A stretch of 64,000 bases of DNA, taken from assembly GCF_014931565.1 (NCBI RefSeq), contig NZ_CP063353.1, positions 3,162,001 through 3,226,000 of the forward strand, given 5' to 3'. The notes under the pieces were generated by a model. It saw nothing but the letters and a program-made list of their open reading frames with translations. It was not told where the DNA came from and ran no database searches. Within the stretch, counting starts at the first letter, position 1; each line of letters starts with the position of its first letter. Below, in pieces: positions 12,798-47,865 of the stretch. This DNA is from Clostridium sp. 'deep sea' (lineage in GTDB: Bacteria; Bacillota; UBA994; PWPR01). Both the position numbers and the translations under genes were made by a program.

Positions 12798-13964
12798 ATG
12801 AAAAAATATTATTTAGATAACGCTTCAACCACTAAAACTAAGCCCGAAACTGTTTATGATGCAATAAATAATACATTAAGAAACATTGGCTGCAGTCCAA
12901 GCCGGGGTAGCTATTATTGCTCACTACAGGCTGGTCGTTTAGTGTTTAAAACAAGAAATAAGTTAGCAAAACTTTTTAATGTAGAAGATAGTCGATATAT
13001 AGTATTTACACCTGGTATAACTTACTCTATAAATACTGCCTTAAGGGGTTTACTTAATGAAGGTGACCATGTTATAACAACCTGTATGGAGCATAATGCT
13101 GTAAGCAGACCATTAAGAACCCTAAAACAGCAAAAAAACATAGATATAACATGGATCCCTGCGGACACTAATGGCCATATAAATATAAGTGATGTAGAAA
13201 AAGCAATATTGCCAAATACTAAGCTTATGGTTGTTAACCATGCTTCTAATATAATTGGCACAATCTTGCCTCTGGCAGAAATAACAGCTATTGCAAAAAA
13301 ACATAATATATACACTATTGCTGATTGTGCTCAAACTGCAGGTTACTGTGACATAAACTTTACGCAGTTAGGTTTAGATGTATTAGCTTTTACAGGACAT
13401 AAAGCTTTATATGGACCACCAGGAACAGGTGGTATGGTATTGAGTAAAAGAGCAGCAAAAGAAATGAGACCACTAATAGTAGGTGGTACAGGAAGTAGTT
13501 CAACAAAACAATTCCAACCAGATCATATGCCTGAAAAATTTGAGAGTGGTACCCAAAATACTGCTGGAATAGCTGGTTTAGGCGCTGGTGTACAATTTAT
13601 CCTAGATACTAAAACAGAGATCATTAGAAAACATGAGCAACAGCTTTTACAGCAGCTTTTAACGGGTTTAAAGCAAATAGATAATATTAAAATATACTAT
13701 TCTGGGGATGTGAAACAGCAAGTTCCTACAATATCCATAACTATAAATAATCTAGAGATGGGCGAGATGAGCATTGTTTTAGACGAAAAGTATGGCATAA
13801 TGACTCGCTCAGGGGTACATTGTTCTCCTTTATCTCATAACTCAGTAGGAACCTTAAAGACAGGTACTATCCGTTTAAGTATAGGCTACTTTAATACAGC
13901 CGAAGAAATAACATATGTAATAAAATCTCTTAAGGATTTAGCCCAAGGAGCACCAAGTGAATAA
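12798..13964 (+). CDS. cysteine desulfurase family protein (class V aminotransferase)
   Basis: A 388-aa PLP enzyme that releases sulfur (or selenium) from cysteine (or selenocysteine). The PLP lysine is Lys202 in TGHKALYGPPG; the persulfide cysteine is Cys342 in SGVHCSPLSH. The sequence looks like the EF2568-type NifS-like group rather than IscS. Ribosome site AGAGGG. It overlaps the alkyltransferase gene by eight bases. NifS-like enzymes can supply selenium, so the pairing with a probable selenoprotein gene is suggestive but unproven. Confidence 0.88.
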   Translation: MKKYYLDNASTTKTKPETVYDAINNTLRNIGCSPSRGSYYCSLQAGRLVFKTRNKLAKLFNVEDSRYIVFTPGITYSINTALRGLLNEGDHVITTCMEHNAVSRPLRTLKQQKNIDITWIPADTNGHINISDVEKAILPNTKLMVVNHASNIIGTILPLAEITAIAKKHNIYTIADCAQTAGYCDINFTQLGLDVLAFTGHKALYGPPGTGGMVLSKRAAKEMRPLIVGGTGSSSTKQFQPDHMPEKFESGTQNTAGIAGLGAGVQFILDTKTEIIRKHEQQLLQQLLTGLKQIDNIKIYYSGDVKQQVPTISITINNLEMGEMSIVLDEKYGIMTRSGVHCSPLSHNSVGTLKTGTIRLSIGYFNTAEEITYVIKSLKDLAQGAPSE

Positions 13965-14433
13965 GTATTACCTCAAGCAGCAAATGCCTTGGGGAGAGAT
14001 AGCTATAGTTTTTAATGATACTAAACAAATTGAATACGTTTCACTTTGTGGAGATTTGCCCCAGAATGTAATTAAAGCAACTTGGTTAGAGTTATCAATA
14101 AAGCTACAGAAATATGCAAATGGAGAACCAGTTGAGTTTTTAGAGCGTTTAAAAATAAATCACTTACCTAATTTTACTCGCAATGTTTTACTATGGTTGC
14201 AGCAAAACTGTAGATATGGTGAAACAGTTACCTATGGAGACATTGCTAAAGCTTTAGGTAAACCAAAATCAGCAAGAGCTGTAGGTCAAGTGATGGCCAG
14301 AAATCAACTACCACTATTTGTACCCTGACATCGGGTATTGGCTAGCACGGGTGCTGGGGGATTTTCAGCTAAAGGTGGCTTAACATTAAAACAGCAAATG
14401 CTTAAATTAGAGGGTTATAGTTTGCATTTATAA
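13957..14433 (+). CDS. ogt: probable selenocysteine-containing O6-alkylguanine-DNA alkyltransferase
   Basis: A 158-aa reading frame interrupted only by TGA at 14326-14328 (codon 124). Before it: the DNA-binding helix with ARAVGQVM and the segment RNQLPLFVP. After it, in the same frame: HRVLASTGAGGFSAKGG and LKQQMLKLEG, ending at TAA 14431. In the family these flank the catalytic Cys of the P-C-H-R-V motif, so the TGA stands exactly where the alkyl-accepting Cys belongs. A hairpin 13 bases downstream fits a bacterial SECIS. I therefore read TGA as selenocysteine. The alternative is a nonsense mutation at just this codon. AAGGAG ribosome site; coupled to the desulfurase gene. Confidence 0.85.
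14326..14357 (+). promoter_or_regulatory. bacterial SECIS-like element after the in-frame TGA
   Basis: TGA, then 13 bases, then stem CTAGCA / TGCTGG (14342-14347 / 14352-14357, one G-T pair) with apical loop CGGG. Distance from TGA to loop (about 20 nt) and a G in the first two loop positions match the bacterial SECIS pattern. Confidence 0.65.
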
Positions 14434-14703: not shown

Positions 14704-14737
14704 AAAAAAGGGTTACTATGCTGTAACATAGTAACCC
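14704..14737 (-). terminator. terminator of the toxin transcript
   Basis: Perfect 11-bp stem GGGTTACTATG / CATAGTAACCC with a six-base loop; TTTTTT follows on the minus strand. Confidence 0.8.
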
Positions 14738-14785: not shown

Positions 14786-14821
14786 AGACCGTCCTGTTGC
14801 AGTCAGGGCGGTCTCTTTTTA
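14786..14821 (+). terminator. plus-strand terminator facing the toxin gene
   Basis: AGACCG and CCTG pair with CAGG and CGGTCT (one bulge each side), followed by CTTTTT. It lies 15 bases from the toxin stop codon. Confidence 0.7.
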
Positions 14822-14835
14822 TGTAAAAAGTAATA

Positions 14836-14907
14836 TTATCTCTTACGAGCTGCAATTACCAAGCCAATGATACCAATGACCAGCATCAAAATTTGATAAT
14901 CTGTCAT
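14836..14907 (-). CDS. type I toxin-like small membrane peptide (holin-like)
   Basis: A 23-aa peptide, MTDYQILMLVIGIIGLVIA followed by basic ARKR. This is the form of the TxpA/BsrG-type 'putative holin-like toxin' family: acidic short N-terminus, one membrane helix, basic tail. The ribosome site GGGAGGTGATT is almost perfect, and the upstream CTCCT in the 5' leader can pair with it (loop TATTTTATA), hiding it until RNA processing. Own promoter and terminator, with an opposing plus-strand terminator just beyond the stop. Expression is normally silenced by an antisense RNA; see the candidate above. Confidence 0.65.
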   Translation of the reverse strand: MTDYQILMLVIGIIGLVIAARKR

Positions 14908-14961
14908 TAGAATCACCTCCCTATAAAATAAGGAGCGCTAGACCAACCCTGCGGTACTTTA

Positions 14962-39977: not shown

Positions 39978-41505
<1,528 letters not shown>

Positions 41506-41562
41506 AGACTAAGAAAACTATTCTACACTATTTAATTCTGAGGGTTTTCCTCAATATAATGG

Positions 41563-41639
<77 letters not shown>

Positions 41640-41657
41640 TTAACAACAAAATAACGT

Positions 41658-41733
41658 GGGGGTGTAGCTCAGTTGGGAGAGCGCCTGCCTTGCAAGCAGG
41701 AGGTCAACGGTTCGATTCCGTTCATCTCCACCA
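41658..41733 (+). tRNA. tRNA-Ala (TGC)
   Basis: 76 nt with encoded CCA; anticodon loop CTTGCAA, acceptor GGGGGTG / CATCTCC with two G-T pairs. In the 16S-23S spacer. Confidence 0.97.
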
Positions 41734-41761
41734 CTACAGAACATTGAAAACTGCATAGAGA

Positions 41762-44687
<2,926 letters not shown>

Positions 44688-44741
44688 AAATTTCTATGTA
44701 GTTTTGAATGCTCTGTTGATAAACAGAGTATGAATAAAGTT

Positions 44742-44857
44742 TATGGCGGCGATGGCAAAGGGGTCACACCTGTTCCCTTACCGAACACAGAAGTTAAGCC
44801 CTTTAGCGCCGATGGTACTTGGCTGGTGACGGCCTGGGAGAGTAGGACGCTGCCATA
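44742..44857 (+). rRNA. rrf: 5S ribosomal RNA
   Basis: ATGGCGGCGATGGC at one end and GCTGCCAT at the other pair; core CCGAACACAGAAGTTAAGCC. Confidence 0.96.
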
Positions 44858-44901
44858 TTAAATTTTTGCAAGCTTAGGCTTGTAAAACGCACACAATGCG
44901 T

Positions 44902-47593: not shown

Positions 47594-47735
47594 AAATTAC
47601 ACCCTATCTCTATAATAATAATACAATAATAGCATAATATAACTTATGTCGATAGTACTATTAATACTAAAAAATTAACGCTTGCTTTTTTCTTAAATAT
47701 CAGTATAATAGAATGAGTCTAAATAAGTTAATTTT

Positions 47736-47849
47736 ATGGTGGCGATGGCAGAGGGGATACACCTGTACCCTTACCGAACACAGAAGTTAAGCCCTTTAGC
47801 GCCGATGGTACTTGGCTGGTGACGGCCTGGGAGAGTAGGACGCTGCCAT
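47736..47849 (+). rRNA. orphan 5S ribosomal RNA
   Basis: Nearly identical to the 5S at 44742, with changes only in the first 30 bases. No 16S or 23S adjoins it; its own terminator follows. Confidence 0.93.
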
Positions 47850-47865
47850 ATTAATTTTATAAAAG

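Follow-up and report, generated by a model that had tools for sequence, protein, structure and literature searches.

A 'methylated-DNA-protein-cysteine methyltransferase' is listed as a predicted, unverified selenoprotein with one representative in two reviews of 2022 and 2026 (PMC9312934, PMC13188914), in line with the sequence-only reading, which had it that selenocysteine (Sec) forms of this alkyltransferase family are rare and predicted in surveys. The representative is given as ABB14497.1 (PF01035), and the prediction is credited to Zhang & Gladyshev 2007. The experimentally verified selenoproteins of the 2026 review include no natural Sec alkyltransferase. Further Sec forms of the same family have been predicted in algae (the MDP selenoprotein) and once in GOS (PMC7539508, PMC2398784). 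The human enzyme, AGT, has been engineered: in an E. coli ada ogt mutant, its Sec145 form confers protection against MNNG and its Ser145 form does not, and Sec makes Asn137 dispensable (PMC4150793).

In the window (the whole stretch of 64,000 nucleotides analysed here), an ogt gene is interrupted by a TGA at its catalytic codon. The product of this gene is, in our view, very probably a true selenoprotein: an O6-alkylguanine-DNA alkyltransferase (Ogt) with a one-use Sec124 acceptor. The locus is composed as follows:

12798-13964, + strand: cysteine desulfurase family protein (TIGR01977), a PLP enzyme of 388 aa, overlapping ogt by 8 nt
13945-13950, + strand: Shine-Dalgarno-like AAGGAG, read directly, its last base six bases 5' of the ogt GTG
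13957-14433, + strand: predicted Sec-type ogt, O6-alkylguanine-DNA alkyltransferase, 158 aa, Sec at residue 124
14326-14328, + strand: in-frame TGA at the catalytic alkyl-acceptor codon, predicted to be read as Sec from the alignment and from nine genomes
14342-14347 paired with 14352-14357, + strand: stem of a bSECIS-like hairpin, loop CGGG at 14348-14351, supported by comparison and covariation

The ogt gene is a single frame running from the GTG at 13957 to the TAA at 14431-14433, with one TGA inside. When read through, it scores 89.7 bits on PF01035 (cut-off 27) and 83 bits on TIGR00589 (cut-off 46.4), which confirms the sequence-only reading that the Ogt/MGMT frame is intact on both sides of the TGA. 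That reading also had the TGA replace the Cys of the P-C-H-R-V active site, and this column is indeed Cys in every Cys-type homologue of a 26-sequence alignment; the window protein has VP-U-HRV, the PCHR[VI] motif being otherwise kept. Asn116, His125, Arg126, Glu152, Tyr93, and Arg107 are invariant across the aligned sequences and, from the motifs, we take them to be human Asn137, His146, Arg147, Glu172, Tyr114, and Arg128. The AlphaFold model reaches a mean pLDDT of 92, its lowest-confidence part being the hairpin-coded residues 131-140 (mean pLDDT 64), and the top Foldseek matches are solved archaeal O6-methylguanine methyltransferases (MGMT), with TM values of 0.85-0.89.

The published rules for a bSECIS ask for a stem of 4-16 bp, a loop of 3-9 nt with G in the first two loop positions, a distance of 16-37 nt from the UGA, and an MFE <= -7.5 (PMC13188914). 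The window hairpin (CTAGCA/TGCTGG, 6 bp), whose 5' arm lies 13 nt and whose loop lies 19 nt downstream of the TGA, agrees with every listed rule, marginally so for the folding energy (-7.7 kcal/mol for 14326-14371, against the limit of -7.5). By itself, it is non-significant, as 6 bp are reached in 6% of synonymous recodings and the folding z-score is -1.2; on these grounds, it was rejected as sole proof of a SECIS. The earlier claim that a stem-loop 13 nt downstream fits a bSECIS thus stands as far as the rules go and is strengthened by covarying relatives, but not by the single hairpin.

The weight of this hairpin comes from a comparison of nine sequences. All nine Sec-type ogt genes have an uninterrupted stem of 5-7 bp, with a GGN or CGGG loop starting 18-19 nt after the UGA. 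A GG-loop hairpin at 18-19 nt occurs in 0 of 26 Cys-type controls; under the same rules, only five of these 26 reach 5 bp (Fisher p = 3e-5, a value that ignores relatedness), and their loops or distances differ. Since MAFFT misaligned the two hairpins with 4-nt loops, these were left out and covariation was scored on the other seven, which have 3-nt loops. Standard pairs fill 91.8% of the pair cells in these seven, versus 81.1% in shuffles, with compensatory exchanges of the G-C/C-G and G-C/U-A types. For three of the five measures, none of 500 shuffles matched the observed pairing, and most of the covariation signal is lost when the hairpin partners are shifted against each other. A free minimum-energy SECIS search, with its larger overlapping folds, did not cleanly split Sec from Cys sequences, whereas the fixed geometry did.

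The host genome (G000; one contig of 3.83 Mb) is equipped for Sec decoding. It encodes tRNA-Sec (75.9 bits, cut-off 47), SelB (391 bits) with SelA adjoining (613 bits), and SelD (387 bits), and the search for selA, selB, selC, and selD suggested by the sequence-only reading therefore found them all. Three more genes of this genome are relevant here:

L036 10058-11095, + strand: SelD, itself of the Sec type, with an in-frame TGA in the GGUxxK motif (GGUSSK)
L086 5925-6984 (G000:C1:2500000-2519999), + strand: selenoprotein-like frame with an ST-U-GTC motif (UxxC), the TGA being followed by GTCTRC, with 88 more codons
L012 1318-2418, + strand: second Ogt, of the Cys type, fused to a 3-methyladenine glycosylase/EndoIII-like domain

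Judging by its motif, the L086 frame is presumably GrdB-like (glycine/sarcosine reductase subunit B). Because of the Cys-type Ogt at L012, which adjoins an Ada/AlkA-like gene, the Sec-Ogt is not the host's sole alkyltransferase. The presence of tRNA-Sec was rejected as a discriminator of Sec-Ogt, since Cys-type genomes carry it too: it was found in all 26 genomes tested, namely the nine with Sec-Ogt and 17 chosen mainly as Cys-type controls.

Ogt is present in 354 of 398 genomes of the phylum (profile search), and the pattern V/I-P-TGA-H-R-V/I is matched in seven of 299, each time in an Ogt. Among the matches listed for the 398 genomes, nine Ogts have an internal stop, always a single TGA at the catalytic codon. 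Six of the nine Sec-Ogt genomes show no second Ogt match at E <= 1e-20. Four changes involving Sec-Ogt are needed on a 36-sequence tree, and a single Sec clade is disfavoured by the AU test (p = 0.035, a result weakened by long branches); several gains, transfers, or losses of Sec in Ogt are likely from these sequences. Ogt relatives are also present in 338 plasmid records. Sec-Ogt in viruses was rejected, as six pattern matches in IMG/VR were due to chance and were not Ogt.

The desulfurase upstream of ogt scores 458.8 bits on TIGR01977 (cut-off 377) and, by its sequence, is related to the selenocysteine lyase SclA, although it remains below the SclA cut-off (NF040779, 415.8 vs 525 bits). It is 65% identical to its counterpart in G001, a genome of the same genus, and shares an operon with ogt in both. 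The sequence-only reading saw a translationally coupled NifS-like enzyme that could supply selenium; the 8-nt overlap is real and fits such coupling, whereas selenium supply by this protein, which scores below the SclA cut-off, stays a mere proposal. A sulfur-amino-acid PLP enzyme lies directly upstream or close by at six of the nine Sec-ogt loci, and belongs to one of three unrelated types, depending on the lineage: TIGR01977 desulfurase (G000, G001), CysK (G061, G099), or methionine gamma-lyase (G006, G007). These enzymes are found at:

L041, L042, L037, L043, window 12798-13964, and L010 1965-3128: PLP enzymes beside Sec-ogt

Homologues of these three types were found within ~1.5 kb of none of 23 Cys-ogt loci, in a comparison drawn after the pairing had been noticed and covering few lineages. 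In G037, a gene for a Tag-like 3-methyladenine glycosylase lies downstream of Sec-ogt, which fits a DNA repair role for Sec-Ogt. That the PLP neighbour supplies selenium, or recovers it from spent Sec-Ogt, is a guess. A selenium-conserving repair module, in which the adjoining PLP enzyme would feed selenium or recover it from the spent Se-alkyl-Sec, and in which the pairing with Sec would have arisen more than once, seems rather unlikely to us.

Other elements were observed in the window. A 26-aa hydrophobic ORF (MILMTDYQILMLVIGIIGLVIAARKR; 14836-14916, minus strand) lies opposite strong terminator hairpins, with terminators near it at 14786-14814 (+) and 14710-14737 (-); it resembles a small type I toxin or a holin-like peptide, and an antisense RNA may accompany it. 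The segment 17287-17829, which follows a DinG-like helicase gene, is an array of 4.5 tandem copies of a ~122-bp unit that are 90% alike; on its minus strand, the frame of a small hydrophobic peptide recurs. A second 5S rRNA (47735-47851) is located ~3 kb past the complete rRNA operon (39981-44858), with no adjoining 16S or 23S in the Rfam matches.

The TGA could be a nonsense mutation in a decayed gene, or a misread TGC or TGT, and the second, Cys-type Ogt of the same genome could make such a loss tolerable. Nevertheless, the same TGA is present in the independently assembled G001 (MAG JANQLZ010000067.1), where the frame, the hairpin, and the two overlapping genes are also kept, and in seven further genomes; the prospects that the sequence-only reading had held against itself, a base misread at 14326 and relatives with a decayed downstream frame, thus did not materialise. 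While the window and G001 Ogt proteins are 64% identical overall, the 33 codons 3' of the TGA show 85% protein identity (pN 0.16 vs pS 0.83), which indicates strong purifying selection on a downstream frame with saturated synonymous sites. Because these codons are conserved despite such saturation, decay and base-calling error are for practical purposes excluded. The sole internal stop of the Sec-ogt frames is the catalytic codon. A pseudogene or a sequencing error was, therefore, rejected, with a negligible probability left to it. It is just as improbable that a general code change or a suppressor tRNA makes UGA stand for Cys, Trp, or some other amino acid instead of Sec. Such a reading could draw on the few TGA terminators of the window (one in ~40 frames), but this low count is local: TGA ends 24 of 270 long frames over 428 kb of the host genome, and a general reassignment was rejected on this basis. 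Since 23 of these 24 frames have short tails (the exception is the GrdB-like frame), TGA is an ordinary stop elsewhere in this genome. The host prfB also retains its usual UGA-dependent frameshift, and full Sec machinery accompanies other classical Sec genes. An in-frame TAG within prfB, seen in several genomes, was an artefact of reading upstream of the normal UGA frameshift site.

A different possibility is that Sec is real, but that the protein mainly serves as a sensor, or accepts groups from some other electrophile, and that its operon partner links it to selenium/sulfur metabolism. In favour of this role, one can cite the desulfurase/Sec-lyase-like gene that overlaps ogt in two species and the 6/9 versus 0/23 distribution of PLP enzymes. 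We nonetheless regard it as very unlikely: the protein retains every family residue involved in catalysis or DNA contact, the fold is that of a standard MGMT, six genomes have no other Ogt, and in one genome the neighbouring gene encodes a repair glycosylase.

For the preferred reading, a Sec-dependent DNA alkyltransferase, the frame, conserved active site, hairpin, and Sec machinery seen in the sequence suggest the following course. SelA and SelD would make Sec-tRNA-Sec, which SelB, bound to the hairpin at 14342-14357, would deliver to the ribosome at UGA 14326; insertion of Sec would then yield the full 158-aa protein. The helix-turn-helix half of Ogt would enter the DNA minor groove, and the alkylated guanine would flip into the Ogt pocket, where the alkyl carbon on O6 would be attacked by the selenolate; guanine would be restored, and the protein would be left dead with an Se-alkyl-Sec. 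We infer this action because the six invariant residues named above are kept, and from the experiments with human AGT. What the cell probably gains is a selenol that would already be ionised at cell pH, so that nucleophile activation would not be limiting. As a counterpoint, Asn116 is invariant in the natural Sec-Ogts, and no relaxation of the active site is seen among the 26 sequences.

To our knowledge, almost every selenoprotein described so far is a redox catalyst whose selenium is used again; one Sec spent per repaired base is an odd use of so costly a residue. With the natural set of Sec and Cys homologues gathered here, one can test why a suicide enzyme should use Sec, and Sec-Ogts, as relatives of SNAP-tag proteins, offer scaffolds that carry Sec naturally. 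The window Sec-Ogt is a divergent case of an already predicted kind, and the comparative evidence behind it is far stronger than one sequence could offer. What is new is the existence of several Sec-Ogt lineages, together with their PLP-enzyme neighbours.

From its gene order, G061 is probably Carboxydothermus hydrogenoformans, the source of ABB14497.1. Like the window Ogt, this predicted bacterial Sec methyltransferase belongs to PF01035 and has its TGA at the same catalytic codon. The two proteins, however, are only ~40% identical and fall into separate tree groups; the upstream partner is a desulfurase in the window and cysK in G061, and the window Ogt has one residue more in the hairpin-coded loop. 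Where the reviews give one representative, without a Sec motif, P-U-H-R-V is found here in nine sequences. The Sec forms of algae (eukaryotic MDP) and of the GOS marine metagenome, compared by description, belong to the same family and differ in origin. The Cys-type Ogt/MGMT proteins of the phylum share the fold and the active-site residues, except for the acceptor (Cys instead of Sec), but lack both the GG-loop hairpin at 18-19 nt and, in the examined flanks, the sulfur-amino-acid PLP neighbour. Engineered Sec-human AGT, finally, carries Sec at the equivalent catalytic position and repairs DNA in E. coli (PMC4150793). It was obtained by UAG suppression without a SECIS and can dispense with Asn137, whereas the natural Sec-Ogts have a bSECIS-like hairpin and keep the equivalent Asn invariant.
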